DNA of 64,000 bases from NCBI GenBank assembly GCA_021029095.1, contig JAJOHG010000002.1:806001-870000 (forward strand), given 5' to 3'. Below are positions 10,970 through 30,200 of the stretch, in pieces. The stretch's first letter is position 1. Each line of letters begins with the position of its first letter. Under the pieces are notes generated by a model. That model was not told the DNA's origin, did no database searches, and saw only the letters and a list, made by a program, of their open reading frames with translations. Source of the DNA: Phellopilus nigrolimitatus. Taxonomy: Eukaryota; Basidiomycota; Agaricomycetes; Hymenochaetales; Hymenochaetaceae. The translations under genes were made by a program, and so were the position numbers.

Positions 10970-11545
10970 AAAGGTAGAAAGAAAAGGCCATAGGCAGATT
11001 TTGTCAGACGAATGGGCTGTTTCGAGAAGTATATAAAGCGAAATTTAACGAAAAGTCACGGCCATGGTGGCATGGCGGTTTGGGTGCTTGAACTGATTGC
11101 GGATCTGAAGGTGGCTGGATCGAATTCGGCGCGTGCCCGAAGACCATTATCTATGTGACAGCAACTTACCCGTGCCCAGGTTCTCCTTTTTTGACGCTTC
11201 AACTATTTTTCACACCGTCTTTTATTTCCCTTATTTTTCCTTTCGTTCGAGAACCGAGCGCAGGATAGATGGAAGTATTTCTACTAGTAACACAGTTCGG
11301 CGGAACAAATTTGCGACCTAATTAGGTTTCACATATATTCGTCTTCAGATATTCTGTCGCTGCAACCTCCTCATTTTTCCCTGAGCAAACTATTTAGCAG
11401 CGCCTTGTCTAGAACTAGCAGATATGAGCATTAAGCTTGAGGTTTGAGACCTCGTCGTCGTTGCTAGAGAAAAATGGTCCAGCGTCACCGATTCTCTTTG
11501 AGATGGACCGCGGGCTGTAAACAAACCATGCCAATGGCCCTGCTC
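10970..11545 (+). repeat. dispersed repeat R, copy A (Pol III-like head)
   Basis: First of several related copies (see 14802, 26230, 31195). It begins with a segment containing GCAGATTTTGTCAGACGAAT, then TATATAAAGCG. A tRNA-like head follows: A-box-like TGGCGGTTTGG and B-box-like GGATCGAATTC about 45 bp apart, and then a body with GACAGCAACTTACCCGTGCC. Internal A and B boxes suggest RNA polymerase III transcription and a SINE-like origin; that is inference. No transposase or reverse transcriptase is encoded. The far end overlaps sequence (GTAAACAAACCAT) shared by all copies. Confidence 0.7.
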
Positions 11546-11751
11546 GATACAAATCGATGCGGCTATCCGTACACGGACTACGGCCATACTTCGTGAATGC
11601 ATGTCCATTATGGCACCGCGCGGACGTCGCGTCAGGCGCCTTACCTTTTATATGTAAGAGGGAGAGAGGAGCCCACCCGGCGCAGTAAAAATAAAAATCC
11701 GTTTCGTGTCCCACACTGAGGAAAAACATGTACCATCACCTTATACATACT

Positions 11752-11825
11752 TAGCAACAACTGGTATCGATCCAGTGACCTCAAGGTTATGAGCCTTGCG
11801 CGCAAAAACACTGCGCCATGCCGCT
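11752..11825 (-). tRNA. initiator-like tRNA-Met(CAT), or relic
   Basis: A 74-nt cloverleaf can be drawn on the minus strand. The acceptor AGCGGCA pairs with TGTTGCT, with A1-T72 and a discriminator A. The D stem is GCGC/GCGC, the anticodon stem CAAGG/CCTTG around CTCATAA (anticodon CAT), and the T stem ACTGG/CCAGT around ATCGATA. The A at position 54 and the A1-T72 pair are initiator features. The D loop reads AGTGTTTTT, lacking the normal GG pair, so function is doubtful. It lies inside arm 1 between the CNT gene and repeat R. The arm 2 copy has the reverse pattern of damage. Confidence 0.6.
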
Positions 11826-12186
11826 CGCAGAATGTGGCTCGCTTGGGCCGCCAGCATGCTCATCTTACATAATTACCGCTCACGGTTTTCCCGACAGGAA
11901 ACCTGCGCAGCCACAAAGTACATACTTATTGTGCATGTAGGCCCGTACGATCTTCGTCTTTGTGTTACTGGTCGACGCCTCTTCGGAAGGATAAAAAAAG
12001 GATGAGTAACAACAGACTATGGCGTACAGGGGACTTCGTATATCGCGGAGCGCAGATAACAGGTTAGCACTATATATGCATAGAAAACAGCAGCGGGCGC
12101 CGCACAGCCGGCCGCCCGGACCCAAGCCCAAGAATAGAGAGGTAAGAGATACACCGAGGAGGGGGAGGGACGGGGCGCCTGGGCAC

Positions 12187-14491
12187 CTAGATGAGCATAC
12201 CGCTGTGGGAGAGGAGAACGCACGCGTGAGCACACTCATCAACAAACAGAGGCGCAGAACGGATTGGGGCGGGGCGGGGCGGGCGCACTCACGCGATGCC
12301 CGCGGTCTGGAGCGTCGAGAGGAAGCCGCACACCATCGCAGAGAACGCGATGCGCGCGATGATTTTGCTGCGCGAGGGCGCGAGCGCGCCGAGCACGCCG
12401 ATCTGGATGCCGAGCGAGCCGAGGTTCGCGAACCCACAGAGCGAGTACGACGCGATCGTGAACGCGCGCGCGCTCAGCGGGTCGCCGCTCGCCATGATCG
12501 CATGCAGCTCTGGCGGGTGCGTGTCACAGAGTTCAAGAGGCTGTCAGAAAGAGGAAGAGAGAGAGAAGCGGCGGGCAGGCGCACCAAGGTAGGCCGCGAA
12601 CTCATTCGCGATCAGTTTCGTCGCAAGCAGCTGCGAGACGCGCAGGATCTCCGCGCGGGGCACGCCGAGGAAGAACGTGACGGGGTAGAAAATGTACCCG
12701 ATGATCAGCTGCAGCGTGAGGTGGTTGATGCCAAAGCCGTGGCCGATCCACGTGAGGAGGCCGTTGATCGCCGCGACGAGAGACAGGATCGTGAGCACGT
12801 TCGTCAGTATGGAGCCCGCGACGACGAGCCCGAACGCGGCGCCCTTCGAGAATGCGTGCAGCGCGTTCGCGGGCGGGTTGCGCTCTTCGGCGGCGCCGCG
12901 GTCGACGACGACGCGCCCGCGCGTGACGGGCTCCTCGCACTCCGGCAAATGCAGCTTGCTGATCGCGATCGACGCGGGAATGGACATGACGGAGGACGTG
13001 ATGAGGTTCTGCGCGGGCACGCCGAGCGCGATGTATGCGGAGAGCACGGAGCCGGAGATCGTGGAGAAGCCTGCGGGAGGGCGCGCGCGTCGGTGCGCTG
13101 CGTGGTGGGCACGGAGAGGGGAGAAGGAGGGGCGTACCGGACGTCATGGTCAGGTGCAGCTCGGATTCGGTCATGAGGTCGACGTAGGGGCGGACGAGGC
13201 ATGCACTCTCGCCCATCCCGATCCAAGGGGAGGCCGCGGCGACGACGGCCTCTGCGCCGGACACATCCATAACTTTGCAGAAGAGCCAAGCGAAGTTCTT
13301 GATGATCCATTGCATCACTCCCAGCTAGCTGAATGTCAAATCCGAGGAGTAGCAAAAACAATCAGCATGGACGTACATAGTACATCATCTGTACGAACGC
13401 AATGAAGAAAATGACCTCGCCGAGCTAATTCCATCGTTCATTGAGCAACGCACGCATCGTCAATATTTAAAAATAAAAATAAAATAAAAACCCCCCGAAA
13501 ACAAAACACGCACCGTGTTGACAAAGAACCACGAGTCCGCAATGACATCCGCAGAGAAGAAGAACTGCGCGCCGACGAGGCCCTGGTTAAGGAAGTCGCG
13601 CGCGAGCGCCGCGAGCCACTTGAAGATACTGAAGCCCGCGCCGGTCTTGAGCACGAAGAGCGCGATGGCCTGCTGGAGGAAGAGGCCGACGACGACGGTC
13701 GGCCACGGGACCGCGCTGCGGCGCGTCGAGGAGAGGTAGAGGCCACACTGGAAGACGAACAGCCCGAGCACGGAGATCGCGCGGTCGCCGTATTTGGTGT
13801 TCTGTGTGATTGCAATGATAAGAAACAACGCAGGGTCGAAGCTACGGGTCGGAGAAGGGACGAAGGGTCAGAGACGCGGGTCGTCTCTGATCACATCGTA
13901 TCAAGGGAAGCGAAGATTTTTCTTATAAAAAAAGGAAAGAAAAGGACGCACGCCGGTGAGCTGGAAGCCGAAGGCGGAGCCAAAGACTATGCCCAGGAGG
14001 CAAAGCCAGCCGACGGTGAGGCGCACTGGGTAGGGCAGACGGTACCAAGGCGTCTGGACGAGGGGCATCCAAACCGCCGCTATGGGCTCGGAGACGACGC
14101 GGGCTGGGATGAAGCGGAAGGCGATGACGGCGAGGAAGAACCACGCGAAGATGGTCTGCACGATCCTGCGCGAAAGTAGCGCGTTCAGCAATTAAAAAAA
14201 AAAAAAAGAACAAAATGCGGGAACGCACCAGCGATGGCGCGTCGCCTTCAAGACGGTCGCAGAGATCCACCAGGCGAGGATGAGCGCAGCGAGGCCGCCC
14301 AGGATGAAGGGCCTGCACCTTGCATAGAGCGCGCGGCGGCGCTCGCGCTCGCGCTCTGCGTCTGCTTCGGGGTCGTCCGACGTGTGCTCAGAGTCGAGGA
14401 CCTGCTTCTCCTTGTCGACGGGCGGAGCGGCGCCCTTGGAGAGGCTGTCGACGGACTCGCGGGGCTGGGGAGCCTCGTACGGGAGAGTCAT
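12187..14491 (-). CDS. concentrative nucleoside transporter, copy 1
   Basis: Member of the CNT family, expected to import nucleosides across the plasma membrane with an ion gradient. Eight exons: 14229-14491, 13952-14165, 13514-13801, 13377-13424, 13138-13324, 12585-13070, 12293-12509 and 12187-12202, in phase, 572 residues. An acidic cytosolic N-terminus (about 75 residues) precedes roughly 10-13 membrane segments. Family landmarks are [17 protein letters not shown] (the NExxAY-type motif) and [17 protein letters not shown] near the C-terminus. The last exon adds only GMLI. Start MTLPYEAPQ at 14491 is the same as in copy 2. No frame break is seen. The exon nearest the C-terminus is separated from the stop exon by an intron of about 90 nt. 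Substrate preference cannot be read from sequence. Confidence 0.93.
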
Positions 14492-14584
14492 GGCGGAGAC
14501 GGGGATGGAGGGGACGGGAGATAGGGAGCGCGAAGATAGATAGATATAAAAGAGAGCTTATCTAGGGCGACATGCCTACATACA

Positions 14585-14801
14585 GCCATGGCCATTCCTT
14601 CCTCAGGATACTTTCAGTAAATACCGAGAGTAGAATATGTACAACCTTGATTCTGAAGTTGCGGCGGTAAATGTCACGTGTTGGATTCCGTGCCTGGTCC
14701 CACGCCTATGTAACGGATGCTGTCAGTGTAAGTCTACGTTATGTGTATGCTCGAAATCCCACTCAAAGAAGAAGTCGGTGAGATCCGCCATACTCACTTT
14801 A
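14585..14801. other. spacer, nothing seen
   Basis: Lies between the inner edge of arm 1 and repeat copy B. No coding or structural signal. Confidence 0.35.
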
Positions 14802-15790
14802 TGAAAGGTAGATGTGACAGAAAGAAAGGCCATAGGCAGATTTTGTTAGACGAATGGGCTGTTTGGAGGGGTATATAAAACGAAGTTTAACGAAAAAGTC
14901 ACGGCCGTGGCAGCATGGCGGTTTGGACGCTTGAACTGAATTGCGGTTCTGAAGGTGGCTGGATCGAATCCGGCGAGTGCCCGAAGACCACTTATGTATG
15001 TGACAGCAACTTACCCGTGCCCAGGTTCTCTCTCTTTCTATCTTTCACACCGTCTTTTATTTCCCTGATATTTTTTCTTTCGTTCGAGAATCGAGCACAG
15101 GATGGATTAGAGTGTTTTCTGCTAGTAACGCAGTTGGAGAAAATAAATCTGCATCTTCTCGAAAAGGGATGCGACCCGATTGCGGCAACACGTGTACCAC
15201 CCTACTGAGTCTTAGCTATCAGCTTGCACAGTAGCTGCTAGATGACTAGGTCATCCATTAATTGGAATGTTATACATAACAATGAATGTTTCGCGTCTAC
15301 TGTACTGATTTATGAAGCTGACTCGAGTTCGCAGCGACTCCGCAATTATTTCTGTTTCACAAATATTTGTCTTCAAAATTTCTGTCGCTGTCTCAGCGAC
15401 TGTGGGTTCATTTTTTAATCCCTTTGAGAAAACTATGAGGTAGCGCCTTTTCTGAGACCGGAAAATGTGGACATTAAATTTGAAGTTTGCGCCGTTATTG
15501 TAGTTGCTTAAAAGAGTTGGTTCAGTGGCACCAACTGTTCTTGAATGGACCACATCCCGTAAACAAACCATAACAACGCGTCCACAATTGTAGCCGATCA
15601 CAATCAAGCTATCGATCCCAATCTTTCCGTATGTAAATTTATAAGTGTATAGCTCGTTGGAGAGATTAGAAACGTGTTATGAAAGTACAGAACAGGAATA
15701 CAAAGGACTTTTCAAGCCAAGATTTTCATGGGTTGATATCGCCGGATAACCATGCCTCGCAGAGTGTAGATTGAATAAGTAGTATAAAAA
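14802..15790 (+). repeat. dispersed repeat R, copy B (longest)
   Basis: Same orientation as copy A. It has the segment with GCAGATTTTGTTAGACGAAT, then TATATAAAACGAAG, A-box-like TGGCGGTTTGG and B-box-like GGATCGAATCC. The body shares GACAGCAACTTACCCGTGCC with copy A. The 3' part (about 15540-15790) matches 31200-31480, including AACAAACCATAACAACGCGT. It is not inside either duplication arm, so the family was already dispersed. The minus-strand open frames here (for example one containing VIGYNCGRVVMVCL) recur in the 31-kb copy, but I regard them as repeat sequence, not genes. Confidence 0.65.
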
Positions 15791-23362: not shown

Positions 23363-23486
23363 CTGTATGTATGCACTGTGTGTACTCGCCGCTCTCCACA
23401 TGCATATCGCCCTAGATAAGCTCTTCTCTTATATCTATCCCACTTCGCGCTCCCTATCTCGCGTCCCCTCCATTCCCGTCCCCGCC

Positions 23487-25766
23487 ATGACTCTCGCATA
23501 CGAGGCTCCCCAGCCCCATGAGTCCGTCGACAGCCTCTCCAAGGGTGCCGCACCGCCCGTCGACAAGGAGAAGCAGGTCCTCGACTCTGAGCACGCGTCG
23601 GACGACCCAGATTCGGACGCAGAGCGCGAGCGCGAGCGCCGCCGCGCGCTCTATGCGAGGTGCAGGCCCTTCATCCTGGGCGGCCTCGCTGCGCTCATCC
23701 TCGCCTGGTGGATCTCCGCGACCGTCCTGAAGGCGACGCGCCATCGCTGGTGCGTTCCCGCATTTTCTTATTTTTTTATCTATTTAAATTTTATTGCTGA
23801 ACGCGCTACTTTCGCGCAGGATCGTGCAGACCATCTTCGCGTGGTTCTTCCTCGCCGTCATCGCATTCCGCTTCATCCCCGCCCGCGTCGTCTCCGAGCC
23901 CATAGCGGCGGTGTGGATGCCCCTCGTCCAGACGCCTTGGTACCGTCTGGCCTACCCCGTGCGCCTCACCGTTGGCTGGCTTTGCCTCCTCGGCATCGTC
24001 TTTGGCTCCGCCTTCGGCTTCCAGCTCACCGGCGTACGTCCTTTTTTTCTACTTTTTTAAATAAACAATCATCGCTTCCCTTGATACGATGTGATCAGAG
24101 ACGACCCGCGTCTCTGACCCTTTGTCCCTTCTCCGACCCGTCGCGTCGACCCTGCATTATTTCTTATCATTGATCACATAGAATACCAAGTACGGCGACC
24201 GCGCGATCTCCGTGCTCGGGCTGTTCGTCTTCCAGTGTGGCCTCTACCTCTCCTCGACGCGCCGCAGCGCGGTCCCGTGGCCGACCGTCGTCGTCGGCCT
24301 CTTCCTCCAGCAGGCCATCGCGCTGTTCGTGCTCAAGACCGGCGCGGGCTTCAGCATCTTCAAGTGGCTCGCGGCGCTCGCGCGCGACTTCCTCAACCAG
24401 GGCCTCGTCGGCGCGCAGTTCTTCTTTTCCGCGGATGTCATTGCGGATTCGTGGTTCTTTGTCAACACGGTGCGTGTTTTTCTTTTTATACCGGCGATGC
24501 GTATTGCTCAATGAGCGGTGGAATTAGCTCGGCGAGATCATTTTCTTCATCGCGTTCATACAAATGATGTACTATGTATGTCCATGCTTTCTTATTCTTT
24601 TACTTGTCCTCAGATTTGACATTCGGCTAGCTGGGAGTGATGCAATGGATCATCAAAAACTTCGCTTGGCTCTTCTTCAAAATCATGGACGTCTCCGGCG
24701 CGGAGGCCGTCGTCGCCGCCGCCTCCCCCTGGATCGGGCAGGGCGAGAGCGCGTGCCTCGTCCGGCCCTACGTCGACCTCATGACCGAGTCCGAACTGCA
24801 CCTGACCATGACGTCCGGTACGCCCCTCCCTCTCCCCTCTCCGTGTTGCCCGCAGCGCAGCGCACCGACGCGCGCGCCCTCCCGCAGGCTTCTCCACGAT
24901 CTCCGGCTCCGTGCTCTCCGCGTACATCGCGCTCGGCGTGCCCGCGCAGAACCTCATCACGTCCTCCGTCATGTCCATCCCCGCGTCGATCGCGATCAGC
25001 AAGCTGCGCATGCCCGAGCGCGAGGAGCCCGTCACGCGCGGGCGCGTCGTCGTCGACCGCGGCGCCGCCGAAGAGCGCAACCCGCCCGCGAACGCGCTGC
25101 ACGCGTTCTCGAAGGGCGCCGCGTTCGGGCTCGTCGTCGCCGGCTCGATCCTGACGAACGTGCTCACGATTTTGTCGCTCGTCGCGGCGATCAACGGCCT
25201 CCTCACGTGGATCGGCCACGGCTTTGGCATCAACCACCTCACGTTGCAGCTGATCATCGGGTACATTTTCTACCCCGTCACGTTCTTCCTCGGCGTGCCC
25301 CGTGCGGAGATCCTGCGCGTCTCGCAGCTCCTCGCGACGAAGCTCGTCGCGAACGAGTTCGCAGCCTACCTCGGTGCGCCCGCCGCTTTTTCTCTCTCTC
25401 TCCCTTTCTGTAACAGCTGAACCGTGGTGTTGCGCGCCCGCCAGAGCTGCAGGCGATCATGGCGAGCGCCGACCCGCTGAGCGCGCGCGCGTTCACGATC
25501 GCGTCGTACTCGCTCTGCGGGTTCGCGAACCTCGGCTCGCTCGGCATCCAGATCGGCGTGCTCGGCGCGCTCGCGCCCTCGCGCAGCCGCGTCATCGCGC
25601 GCATCGCGCTCTCCGCGATGGTGTGCGGCTTCCTCTCGACGCTCCAGACCGCGGGCATCGCGTGAGTGCGCGCCCACCCCGGGCTTTCCTCTCTGCCTCA
25701 ACCCGTTCTGCTCCTCTGTGCTTACGCATGCGCTCTCTCCTCCCCCACAGCGGCATGCTCATCTAG
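23487..25766 (+). CDS. concentrative nucleoside transporter, copy 2
   Basis: Paralogue of the 12187-14491 gene with identical exon number and phase: 23487-23749, 23820-24033, 24182-24469, 24528-24575, 24631-24817, 24888-25373, 25445-25661 and 25751-25766, 572 residues. Same CNT landmarks: [17 protein letters not shown] and [17 protein letters not shown]. Only scattered substitutions distinguish the two proteins, for example [13 protein letters not shown] versus [21 protein letters not shown] versus WLFCKVMD, and LRMPEREEP versus LHLPECEEP. Both frames are intact, so both may be expressed. The introns differ more than the exons, which is consistent with selection on the protein after duplication. 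Function as in copy 1: ion-coupled nucleoside uptake at the plasma membrane. Confidence 0.93.
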
Positions 25767-26160
25767 GCGCCCAGGCGCCCGGTCCCTCCTCCCTCCTCGG
25801 TGTATCTCCTACCCCCTTCTATCCTTGGGCCTTGGTCCGGGCGGCCGGCTGTGCGGCGCCCGCCACTGTATTTATATGCGTAGATAGTGCTTACCTGTTG
25901 TCCGCGCTCCGCGCTATGCGAAGATCCGTCGCCTGTTGATCCCTCGTCCTTTTCTTTAACATTTCGACGAGGCGTCGACCAATTAAGCAAGACCGGAGGT
26001 CGTCCTGACCTTTGATAAGTACTTTGCATACTTTGTGGTTGCCGCTGCTTTCGCGCTATCGCAATGCACAGCACAGCAAGCAGCACACATTCTCGGGAGT
26101 GATAATTATGTAAGACGAGCATACATGTAGGCTGACGGCCGAAGCGAGCCACATTCTGCG
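25767..26160. other. 3' flank of CNT copy 2, within arm 2
   Basis: Homologous to 11826-12186 read on the minus strand (shared GGGCGGCCGGCTGTGCGGCG and AATTATGTAAGA). No separate gene is seen. The corresponding arm 1 sequence is shorter and diverged. Confidence 0.5.
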
Positions 26161-26234
26161 AGCGGCACGGCGCAGTGGTTTAGCGCGCAAGGCTCATAAC
26201 CTTGAGGTCACTGGATCGATACCAGTTGCTATGT
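26161..26234 (+). tRNA. initiator-like tRNA-Met(CAT), damaged acceptor
   Basis: Arm 2 partner of the 11752-11825 sequence. The D loop here is normal (AGTGGTTTA), with the anticodon loop CTCATAA and T arm ACTGG-ATCGATA-CCAGT. The 3' acceptor strand reads TGCTATG and pairs poorly with AGCGGCA because three bases (TTG) are missing relative to arm 1. It is probably a pseudogene. Confidence 0.5.
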
Positions 26235-26736
26235 AGCATGGTTTGTTTACAGCCCGCGGTCCATTCAAAGAGAGTCGGTACCGCTGGACCAACTCTTTTT
26301 AGCAACGACGACGACGTCGCAAACCTCAAGCTTAATGCTCATATCTGCTAGTTCCAGAAAAGGCTCTGCTAAATAGTTTGCTCAGGGAAAAATGAGGAGA
26401 ATGCAGTGGCCTAGACAGCGACAGAGTATTTGGAGACGAATATTTGTGAAACCTAATCGGGTCGCAAATTTGTTCCACCGAACTGTGTTACTAGTAGAAA
26501 TACTTCCATCTGTCCTGCGCTCGGTTCTCGGACGAAAGGAAAAATAAAGGAAACAAAAGACGGTGTAAAATATAGAAAAAGAGAGAACCTGTGCACGGGT
26601 AAGTTGCTGTCACATAGATAGTGGTCTTCGGGCACGCGCCGGATTCGATCCAGCCACCTTCAAATCCGCAATCAGTTCAAGCGCCCAAACCGCCATGCCA
26701 CCACGGCCGTGACTTTTTCGTTAAACTTCGCTTTAT
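26230..26736 (-). repeat. dispersed repeat R, copy C, interrupted
   Basis: Minus-strand copy of repeat R: shared body (GACAGCAACTTACCCGTGC on minus), B-box-like GGATCGAATCC and A-box-like TGGCGGTTTGG. It stops abruptly at CTTTAT (26731-26736). The missing end, with GCAGATTTTGTTAGACGAGT on minus, is found at 29461-29525. The two parts flank the TIR element and rejoin exactly if it is removed. Confidence 0.75.
26731..26736. repeat. target site duplication, left (CTTTAT)
   Basis: CTTTAT directly outside the left inverted repeat, repeated at 29461-29466 outside the right one. The uninterrupted copy A has this hexamer once, at 11033-11038 on the opposite strand (ATAAAG). Confidence 0.75.
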
Positions 26737-26778
26737 TATGGTGGTCGGGACAGCTCAGCTTCCCAAATTGCCTTATTG
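26737..26778 (+). repeat. terminal inverted repeat, left
   Basis: Begins TATGGTGGTCGGGACAGC. The first 28 bases match the right repeat perfectly, then two mismatches (AA versus TG), then 12 more matching bases (ATTGCCTTATTG). Confidence 0.85.
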
Positions 26779-26948
26779 AGCCAGTGATGCCGATCAATTC
26801 AAGCCCCGACTAAGGGTCTTGACGCGTGTTGCTTAGGACCTCGAATACCACTGATGTATTGGTCATAGAAAAGGTCATAGAATAATTATTAATATTTTTT
26901 ATGTGCCTCCGCTAGCCCGACCGTGCTGTACACTCTGGGCCAGTATCT

Positions 26949-27915
26949 GTGGGGAAATTTTTCTTCTGGCGTTCTCGTTCTCCATCGCATATAAGGACGA
27001 TGATGGCGATGCCATGGACGTCACGACTGAATTCAACCTCACAGCGGCTAATCAATACTTTTAGGCAGGTGTCGATAACCTCCCGCCTCCTCTGCAGTCC
27101 ATCCTGCCCGGACGCAGCTTTGGAAGCAGGCGCATAGCGCTGCGCGTGAATATCACTGTCGACTACGACGGCTCAAGTTTGTCCGACACCTCGTCGCTTA
27201 TGAGCCTGGATGAATACAAGAATTACAATAGCAGTAGCTCTTCACTGTCTCTTCCGTTTGGGTCAGCCGTGCACATCAAGACGGAGTACCACTATCGGCT
27301 TGAGGGACACCGGGTTACTCGTGCAAAAGACGAAGACAATCGTGGACGGCGGGAGCGAGTTTACGGTGCAATACTTCCACACCTTGTCCGGCTTGGAGTT
27401 TGATTCTGACACAAGCGCGTTCGATGGTACGTCCCCTGGTGTCCAAATATCCGTTTTTTTTTTTTTTTTTTTTTTTTCCTAAAGTCCGGGAAAAAAGAGC
27501 GGTACCCCGTGGATCCCTCTGCAGCTATCAAGCGGCTGAAACTGTCCGAATCCTCCGAGTCCATCAAGCGAAACACATGCAATGACTGCGCGACCAGACG
27601 TCGCGCGATATCAACGGCATCATGATGCCTGAGTCTGTCGTCTCCGATGGCTCCTTACCCGCTCTAAGTGGCGATGATCTGGATGCGCGGAGTCTTTTTG
27701 ACGGTGACCTCGCACTGCAGCAGGATAAGAGCCTCTACTACTACGCGTATACCTCCGGGAGCTCGTCGTCCGCGCCCGCAGCAGCTATTCACGACGACAT
27801 CATCATCGGTGAGCACGGCAGCCGCCGTGTCGAGGACTGGCACGAGCCGAAGCTACAGTACACTGGCTCCCGAACTCACGCGACCCGCTGCGTACCGCAG
27901 CAATCGATGCGGTAG
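26949..27915 (+). pseudogene. coding-like fragments of unknown function in the TIR element
   Basis: Several short plus-strand frames read like protein but do not join cleanly: NITVDYDGSSLSDTSSLMSL at 27146, LVQKTKTIVDGGSEFTVQYF near 27316, KKERYPVDPSAAIKRLKLSE near 27492, and DGSLPALSGDDLDARSLFDG near 27640. A run of 24 thymines (27454-27477) interrupts them. They do not resemble the N or PAZ domains of Argonaute. They may be a second captured fragment or remains of the element's own gene. I do not recognise them. Confidence 0.35.
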
Positions 27916-27918
27916 AGA

Positions 27919-28998
27919 ATGGTATCAAGACGCTTCTTGGGTGTCCGAATACCATGCTTTGTCTTCGCATCCATTAGCGAGATCTACTCAGGTCTGAAGA
28001 AACTCTGCGACTCCAAGCTCGGGATCGCGGCCGTCTGCATGCAAATGGCGAGTGTTAGAAAAGAAAAGGTCAGCATCGATACCTCGAGTATTGCGCTCCA
28101 AATCAACACGAAGCTTGGCGGCGTCAACCACCAGCTCGATGCGAGCTCCATGTGCTGGCTCAAAAACACGATGCTCGTCGGAATGAACTTGACACACCCT
28201 GATGTTGGCTGCATAAAAGGACGCCGTCGATTGCTGCGTTGTAGCGAGCTGTGATGAGGAGTTCATGCACTATCCCGCAAGTTTCGGCCCCCAAAGACAC
28301 GAAAAAGAGGCGAGCGCTGTCTTCAATTTTTATCATTCTATTCTGACCGTTTCATCAAAACAGATGATTACTGGGGTCAAGCAAGTGGTGATCGAGTGTC
28401 TGAATGAATATTTGAAGCACACGAAGACCCTTCCCGAGCGCGTCGTTGTGTTCCGCGACGGGGTCTTCGACGGCCAGTTCAAATGCATGGTCACTCTCGA
28501 GCACCCGGAGATCAGAGCAGCGTTTTGCTCTTTCAAGGGCTTCAGTCCCAAGTTCGCCATCGCGATCTGCAGGAAGCGGCACCGTACGTGCTTCTACCCA
28601 ATGAGGCCTGAGCAGGCGGATTAGACCTCAAGCGTTAAGGCCGGGACGCTCGCCGACTGGGGCATCACTGCGGTGTATAACTTCGATTTATTCCTGCAGG
28701 CGCACGCGGGGCAGCAAGGTACAGCGTGCGTGAGGATTACACGGTGATATTCGACGAGAACCGTTCCCCCGCGGATAACATCCAACAAAACGTGCATGAC
28801 GCGAGCTGCCCACGACGAATAGCGTGCGGCTAATTCCATCGGCGTACGCGGTGGAACGAACAAGCGCGCCAACGCGCGCGGCTGTACCTGCACAGGATCC
28901 TTCCGCCGCAGCATGGACGATGGTAAGATACTGCGCAGGGCGAAAGAGCTAAGGGGCACGAGAATCCATGAGAGTCTGAGGGGACCCATGCTTTACTT
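27919..28998 (+). pseudogene. Argonaute (MID-PIWI) pseudogene
   Basis: C-terminal half of an Argonaute, the small-RNA-guided protein of RNA interference. In order: EIYSGLKKLCDSKLGIAAVC (MID-type), ALQINTKLGGVNHQLD, MLVGMNLTHPDVGCIKG (family: GMD.THP), EEFMHYPASF, TGVKQVVIECLNEYLKHTKT, ERVVVFRDGVFDGQF, FAIAICRKRHRTCFYPM, ITAVYNFDLFLQAHAG, YTVIFDENR, ADNIQQNVHDASC, and the terminus ESLRGPMLYL. Lesions: at least two single-base losses near 28220-28250, an in-frame stop at about 28622 and a frame change near 28720. The first catalytic Asp is Asn (GMN). N and PAZ domains are not recognisable. It lies wholly inside the TIR element, so it was probably captured and then decayed. It cannot encode an active slicer. 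Confidence 0.85.
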
Positions 28999-29418
28999 GT
29001 GAGTTGCGACAAGAGGAGAAATAGTACGGATTTGAATACGAATGCGAATATGTATTTCTATGTATGCTGAAATCTATCAGTGTATTACATGAGACTGTTG
29101 TCATTGTGTACAATTAGTTCTAGTGAAGTAGAGTTTGAAGATTGAACGTCAGTATGCGCACGCCGGCACATTCGATTACTTCCATGCGACATTCAGTGGA
29201 CCTACAACACTAGCTCCTTTACGTTCGAGAAGCAGGCGAGGAGCATTACCGCGCTGCATGCCCGGTGAAGGTATCGTTTGTATGCCTGTTATCGACAGTA
29301 AATGGCTTATTACTAATTATTTAAATTATCTATAGCGGTCCCGGGGGTCTTACTGCTCCGGTTAATCGAGTGCTGCCTATATATGGTAGCAATCAATCGG
29401 AGCTCTAACAAGGTGTAC

Positions 29419-29460
29419 CAATAAGGCAATCAGGGAAGCTGAGCTGTCCCGACCACCATA
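29419..29460 (-). repeat. terminal inverted repeat, right
   Basis: Reverse complement of the left repeat, with two mismatches. It is directly followed by CTTTAT (29461-29466), the second copy of the target duplication. Confidence 0.85.
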
Positions 29461-29525
29461 CTTTATATACCCCTCGAAACAGCCCACTCGTCTAACAAAA
29501 TCTGCTCATGGCTACTTCTTTCTGT
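29461..29525 (-). repeat. outer end of repeat R copy C
   Basis: Minus-strand GACAGAAAGAAG followed by GCAGATTTTGTTAGACGAGT and a TATATAAAG end. It matches the first 65 bp of copies A and B and completes copy C across the TIR element. Confidence 0.75.
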
Positions 29526-30200
29526 CAAAGTTATCTTGCATGCTTCAAAGTCTGCGGGAATGCAGCATGATGGCTCGCACCTACAACAGCGACATCCACC
29601 GCGCTCTCGGCATTCAGTGTATCTCAGACAGAATACCAACTGACACGAGTGTGCAGACTGTCATCTGAAGCCACAACGATAAGATTCTGACAAAGAGAAC
29701 AAAGGGAACGACGCATAACTGCTAGAAAAACTCTCGTTATCGCACGCAACCGACGACATATTGTTAATAAATCCAGAAAAACTTGGACTTTGGCACAGGA
29801 CCTCGTATTACTGCGCGTGAAAGATACGTCAATCATAAAGACAGGCAAAAATCTGTAAATGACAGTATTCACCTCCACCTTTACCTCCTTGTCGCTCACG
29901 GTCACATACGCACCGTCGAGCTTCGTGCTCTCCTTCCCGGGGAAGAGACCTTCTTTGTCACCAGCCCCAATGCCCATTACGCCTTGCCTCTCGTGTGCAC
30001 GCGCAATCGCAAGTAGGAGTTCGTCGGTCTCGTGTGTCCGCCCGCGACGGCTTATGCTCCGCCGAGCACACTGATCGTCGGAGGACCCTTATGAGGCACC
30101 CACTTTACGCCCTTCGAAAAAGCATAAAAATCAAGAAACAAACGTACGAATTCCTCCATTGTGATGTTTTTAGAAATTGCAGTGACTTAGATTAGGACCG
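29526..30200 (-). pseudogene. fragment of an unrecognised gene
   Basis: On the minus strand a clearly coding-like block runs from about 30140: KGVKWVPHKGPPTISVLGG, then in another frame ETDELLLAIARAHERQGVMG and IGAGDKEGLFPGKESTKLDG, AYVTVSDKE, before a donor-like GTAAAG at 29870. After that no continuation is found. The frame change near 30060 and the lack of a terminus suggest a truncated or broken gene next to the TIR element. I do not recognise the family. Confidence 0.35.

Follow-up and report, generated by a model that had tools for sequence, protein, structure and literature searches.

The DNA analysed is a stretch of 64,000 nucleotides (hereafter the window) from the genome of Phellopilus nigrolimitatus (Hymenochaetales), and its positions 26737–29460 form an element of 2724 bp bounded by terminal inverted repeats (TIRs) of 42 nt, 95% complementary to one another and with the termini TATGG..CCATA (Table 1). 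A 6-bp direct repeat, CTTTAT, stands on both flanks. An earlier note on this DNA had described the 42-bp repeats, the 6-bp duplication and, inside, recognisable MID-PIWI segments of Argonaute, and all three were borne out. No Rfam match at gathering score was obtained for window positions 26400–29800, and a tRNA scan of positions 26400–26800 found none.

When the outer flanks, joined with one CTTTAT, were used as the query, two paralogous sites in the window were found to match them without interruption, which demonstrates that the 2.7 kb was inserted. The element lies at the edge of a large inverted duplication (window 11051–14553 / 23425–26717, pieces 89–96% alike), inside which a gene for a Na+-dependent nucleoside transporter is found (PF07662, 4.8e-45).

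Table 1. Features of the 2.7-kb element in the window, its empty sites, and the four elements found in the assembly
Feature	Position	Strand	Remarks
Left target-site duplication CTTTAT	26731..26736	.	single copy at paralogous empty sites
Left terminal inverted repeat, 42 bp, TATGG...	26737..26778	+	
Subterminal transposon sequence, left	26779..26957	.	88% identity between the terminal ~134 bp, TIR included, and one end of the 22-kb elements
Captured NBR1-like PB1/ZZ zinc-finger gene fragment	26958..27857	+	83–84% to C603/C181; frames broken
Intron-like stretch kept in the NBR1-like fragment	about 27427–27489	+	
13-bp junction joining the two captured fragments	27858..27870	.	
Captured Argonaute fragment, frameshifted	27871..29153	+	end of MID, PIWI, C-terminus, 3' UTR; P0121 residues about 549–916
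Retained Argonaute intron, donor GT changed to GC	28310..28363	+	from alignment to C90; stretch skipped in annotated P0121
In-frame TAG common to C114/C146 Argonaute pseudogenes	28622..28624	+	
Subterminal sequence, right	29154..29418	.	92% identity between the terminal ~170 bp, TIR included, and the opposite end of the 22-kb elements
Right terminal inverted repeat, 42 bp, ...CCATA	29419..29460	-	
Right target-site duplication CTTTAT	29461..29466	.	
Paralogous empty site, 90%	14801..14992	-	target hexamer once, one mismatch
Second paralogous empty site, 91%	10976..11151	-	CTTTAT once, exact
Small element copy 1	window 26737–29460		2724 bp; duplication CTTTAT
Small element copy 2	C33:23201–25920		2720 bp; duplication CGGGCG
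Large element copy 1	C334:974759–997119		22.4 kb; duplication GCGACG
Large element copy 2	C279:258584–280845		22.3 kb; duplication CTGCTG

Captured host DNA and its decay

Argonaute is a core gene of gene silencing, the pathway that polices transposons. In the element, PIWI (PF02171) was recognised in broken frames at 27916–28254 (E 2.3e-10) and 28217–28624 (E 7.1e-19), both over the curated cut-off, and in a six-frame PIWI search of the genome the locus scored 7.0e-24. The similarity is thus far above the chance level that the earlier note had named as speaking against its reading; nor does Argonaute homology continue across the TIR borders, the other such outcome it had named, but stops inside the ends. 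The homologous stretch measures 1283 bp, compared with the 1.1 kb noted previously, reaches into the 3' UTR, and is preceded by a second captured gene.

Compared with the genome, the interior gave at least 46 matches, comprising the two copies of the element, 15 matches of its left part and 29 of its right part (lower bounds, 40 of 132 candidates having been scored). The left part shows 83% identity to loci on C603 and C181, the former of which encodes a PB1 domain and a ZZ zinc finger that narrowly exceed the cut-offs (1.8e-5 and 4.8e-6, respectively), a make-up that we take to be NBR1-like. The right part is Argonaute, sharing approximately 85% identity with C114 and C146 and approximately 81% with C90, the locus of the full-length, 916-aa Argonaute P0121, in which N, L1, PAZ, L2 and PIWI score over the cut-offs and MID below. 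Intron-like sequence is kept in both parts, and 3' UTR in the right one; therefore, the capture was of DNA, not of spliced RNA. As none of the left-part matches listed (at least 15) falls on C114 or C146, the two parts were probably joined inside the transposon. The full-length Argonautes P0121 and P0122 (C368) have RGG or RAG where their relative P0125 has RDG, presumably the slicer motif, and slicer activity may be lost.

The Argonaute piece contains frameshifting indels and its frames are broken. Its TAG at 28622 is present in C114 and C146 and absent from six other aligned paralogues; furthermore, 43 alignment columns are common to the element, C114 and C146 and to none of the five other paralogues compared, with columns shared by the element alone numbering 10 with C90, 5 with C13, 4 with C27 and 0 with C612. 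On account of the common TAG and the 43 columns, the Argonaute donor was probably a pseudogene before capture. The proposal of the earlier note, that an RNAi gene had been captured by a non-autonomous element, is therefore well supported as regards the capture and has to be amended in two respects: two genes were taken, and the Argonaute donor had probably decayed already.

Substitutions at codon positions 1/2/3 were 38/28/35 between the element and C114, against 23/24/115 between C90 and C27. Hence, no coding constraint on the piece was seen in the comparison with C114, and its indels, the TAG and this even distribution differ from the open frame under protein selection of a functional Argonaute. 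The element and C90 differ by 47/36/74, with a third-position excess that is also seen between C114 and C90 (37/34/72), as expected if constraint ended before capture; we attribute the excess to the period preceding decay of the donor. C>T or G>A changes specific to the element affect 18 of 187 CpG sites, against 11 of 320 C/G sites elsewhere (p = 0.005), whereas C114 gave 4/156 and 10/333 (p = 1.0) and C90 9/163 and 16/339, with little or no excess in either. This CpG-biased decay suggests that the DNA was methylated.

Copies of the ends and the 22-kb partner

The earlier note had proposed a search for further copies of the 42-bp ends, and across the 56.4-Mb assembly of 635 contigs these were found in four elements, two of 2.7 kb and two of 22 kb. 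All 8 matches of a 121-base left-end query were the two ends of these elements, and a 28-base end pattern, allowing up to 3 mismatches, hit 9 sites, 8 of them exact (the same ends) and a ninth, on C46, that differs at 3 positions; in the assembly, the reversed pattern used as a control gave 0 sites. An 18-base pattern with up to 2 mismatches hit 15 sites compared with 5 in the control, so that lone 2-mismatch matches carry little meaning. The right-end query returned 11 matches, namely the 8 element ends and diverged ones on C246, C46 and C60. The first of these (C246:164771–164914, L062) is a relic of the right end, 83% identical, with the outermost bases absent. The others (C46:361337, L070, and C60:12682, L071) are IS3EU-like ends that share one outer flank, with PIWI matches 10.6 kb and 15.7 kb away, respectively; the 28-base and 18-base end patterns detected no second end on either contig.

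Each of the four elements is flanked by a perfect 6-bp duplication, and since the four duplications are all different and unrelated, they record four separate insertions. Uninterrupted counterparts were found by joined-flank searches for the other three sites as well: for C334 on C313 (97% over 200/200 bases), which looks like the other allele, for C279 on C97 (85%), and for C33, in a repeat region, at C633:54799 (92%) and elsewhere (76–87%). Counterparts at 76–92% may be paralogues rather than alleles. Between the two 2.7-kb copies there are no substitutions and two 2-nt indels; that the C33 copy is the second haplotype of the same insertion is ruled out by its different flanks and duplication. 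The 22-kb copies are 99.4–99.9% identical over five long aligned pieces outside a nested Copia, which sits at a different point in each (L011 3136–8796; L014 697–6246; 91% alike) and in the C334 copy has an open frame of 1527 aa. Without Copia, they measure 16,706 and 16,712 bp.

The 22-kb elements possess a six-exon transposase gene (L011 951–2755, identical in both copies) with five introns, all GT..AG, and exon borders placed by hand, from which a protein of 479 aa without internal stops is predicted. Spliced, this protein matches the integrase-core family PF24764 (E 2e-15, over the cut-off). A search of the genome with the PF24764 profile listed only C616 and C489 and missed the 22-kb transposase because single exons score too low; the assignment consequently rests on the spliced protein. 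Its relatives in the protein database number 256 at E 0.001 among 7993 scored candidates, and 118 of the 120 listed belong, as far as recognised, to Agaricomycete genera. Residues D129, D188 and E229 are invariant in 12/12 aligned sequences (the query and 11 chosen from the 120 listed). In the genome, the protein matches only the two 22-kb loci (12 exon matches, 6 each). The transposase lies on the plus strand of the 22-kb element and an alpha-kinase domain (PF02816, E 2.5e-6, over the cut-off) on the minus strand. Neither a Pfam scan nor the genome search with the 22-kb protein revealed a transposase in the 2.7-kb element, which is therefore non-autonomous.

Class of the elements and mode of capture

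IS3EU transposons have TA..TA ends and, usually, 6-bp duplications (PMC10045372), and those of rust fungi are described with TAYGG..CCRTA termini, TIRs longer than 30 bp, duplications of 6 bp, and a transposase gene and an alpha-kinase gene that run in opposite directions (PMC12730594). These features recur here: 6-bp duplications in 4/4 elements, 42-bp TIRs with TATGG..CCATA, a DDE transposase with an integrase-like core, present in the 22-kb partner only, and, in the same partner, an alpha-kinase opposed to it. The 22-kb elements accordingly fit IS3EU, where they are filed by ends, duplications, transposase profile and gene orientation. Among their scanned ORFs (many short ORFs were outside the scan), no TET/JBP gene, as carried by the TET+ IS3EU families, was found. 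Polinton/Maverick, considered for the 22-kb element in view of its size and 6-bp duplication, was set aside as the transposase is of a different type; the same subset of ORFs gave no Pfam match to DNA polymerase B or capsid. Capture by a Helitron is ruled out by the TIRs and duplications.

The Pack-TYPE and Pack-MULE elements of plants are non-autonomous TIR elements that hold host gene fragments in a chimeric interior. With no transposase, and with host gene fragments between TIRs flanked by a duplication, the 2.7-kb element is of this make-up. It differs from those of plants (PMC8903248) in its fungal host, in its IS3EU ends and in the number of copies, only two of which were found.

We consider it very probable that the 2.7-kb element is a young, non-autonomous Pack-type IS3EU transposon with NBR1-like and decayed-Argonaute cargo, moved by cut-and-paste with the 22-kb transposase acting in trans. 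In such an element, 42-bp IS3EU ends and subterminal DNA would enclose a host-derived interior, in which the NBR1-like PB1/ZZ fragment would have been joined to an Argonaute fragment from a paralogue already decayed; capture would have occurred by DNA repair during transposition, and movement would depend on the transposase of the 22-kb elements (~16.7 kb without Copia). Mobilisation in trans is likely, and as the ends of the two element sizes are only 88–92% identical (Table 1), it is by inference that we assign recognition of the 2.7-kb ends to this transposase. The captured DNA would travel as a passenger.

Comparable systems have been described in fungi as well. A histone H3 gene has been captured by a hAT transposon in Dothideomycetes (PMC6710886), and TET/JBP genes are carried by IS3EU and other fungal transposons (PMC12730594). 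To the earlier note, which knew of no fungal example of this exact arrangement, it is to be added that gene capture by TIR transposons as such is on record in fungi. The fungal IS3EU of Kojima 2025 (PMC12730594) agree with the present elements in 6-bp duplications, TIRs over 30 bp and TAYGG..CCRTA ends, and with the 22-kb partner in the opposed transposase and alpha-kinase and in carrying host-type genes. The cargo described for them is TET/JBP, and they come mainly from rusts, whereas the present elements carry pieces of Argonaute, NBR1-like, cyclin and eIF3a genes, lie in a Hymenochaetales genome and include a transposase-free derivative of 2.7 kb. The hAT-histone H3 case (PMC6710886) is similar in that a fungal DNA transposon captured a host gene and the copies decay by mutation, and differs in its hundreds of copies and RIP, compared with two copies of an IS3EU element holding a fragment of a silencing-pathway gene. 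Among the titles and abstract openings listed from the open-licence literature, none mentioned an Argonaute fragment in a fungal DNA transposon, which is weak evidence of novelty. The present case is a clean and young gene-fragment capture by IS3EU, for which a partner that is likely autonomous, four distinct insertion sites and their uninterrupted counterparts are all available, and the captured gene belongs to the very pathway that polices transposons.

Argonaute pieces in other transposons and possible function

Argonaute DNA is also found in the 22-kb element, as an N-PAZ piece (tblastn with P0121, E 5e-55, in several pieces) on which the ArgoN profile scores 1.5e-4, below the Pfam cut-off. 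The same element holds a piece of eIF3a (PF22591, 9e-36; 91% to C90:294777) and a piece that shares 91% identity with C86, at a locus coding for a Pho80-type cyclin (PF08613, 2e-22). In addition, 39 Argonaute-bearing locus windows (overlapping, and not 39 genes) were scanned for TIRs with abutting duplications; these windows extend only ~1.5 kb past the match, and larger elements would be missed. One match was obtained, an element of 2351 bp at C43:55230–57580 (L028 189–2539), with 21-bp ends (20/21) starting TAGGG, an 8-bp duplication (ATTGGCTG) and Argonaute residues about 423–916, compared with 2/780 in the shuffled-sequence control at the same 10-bp limit. From the length of its duplication we take it to be hAT-like. 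Three types of element with Argonaute cargo, belonging to two superfamilies, occur together in this genome, which makes an effect on host silencing directly testable.

Most likely, the captured DNA has no function and is passenger cargo. The suggestion that the Argonaute piece works as RNA, read-through small RNAs lowering host Argonaute to the benefit of the transposon, draws on 33 shared 21-mers and a longest exact match of 29 nt with the full-length Argonaute on C90, on the corresponding figures of 117 and 41 nt for the pseudogene on C114, and on the three kinds of transposon-borne fragment; however, identity is only ~85% to the best match and ~81% to C90, and the CpG-biased decay is suggestive of methylated DNA, and we regard this role as very improbable. 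There is an equally slim chance that two transposon superfamilies repeatedly carry Argonaute pieces as an anti-silencing strategy in which small RNAs would damp Argonaute, and it bears on this idea that the window was picked for its Argonaute and the hAT-like case sought on purpose.

Alternatively, the 2.7-kb element might have arisen when a 22-kb element with Argonaute already inside it lost internal DNA, with no separate capture. Both element types do have Argonaute DNA and matching ends, but the pieces cover residues about 15–435 in the 22-kb and 549–916 in the 2.7-kb element without overlap, lie in opposite orientation relative to the matching ends and have different closest relatives, and beyond the ends and one 21-bp match there is no nucleotide match between the 2.7-kb element and the fetched 22-kb pieces. 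We hold a deletion origin to be very improbable; given the lack of overlap, the opposed orientation and the differing relatives, the pieces were most likely captured separately.

An ordinary decayed Argonaute paralogue with an inverted repeat beside it by chance might be imagined in a genome this rich in Argonaute fragments (73 exon-level PIWI matches), and is practically negligible in view of the unrelated site at which these ends and this interior recur, the four duplications and the uninterrupted sites. A Pack-type IS3EU element is thus the reading we retain.

The PIWI matches fall into about 44 places, both 2.7-kb copies included, and many are broken; Argonaute copies and relics are thus numerous in this genome. 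A 1.39-kb Argonaute fragment occurs on C614 (L072 532–1920) and C164 (L073 554–1943), where no TIR or duplication was found. The two share 1391 bp at 99.1% identity with sharp ends, and similar matches are present at C446 and C290.
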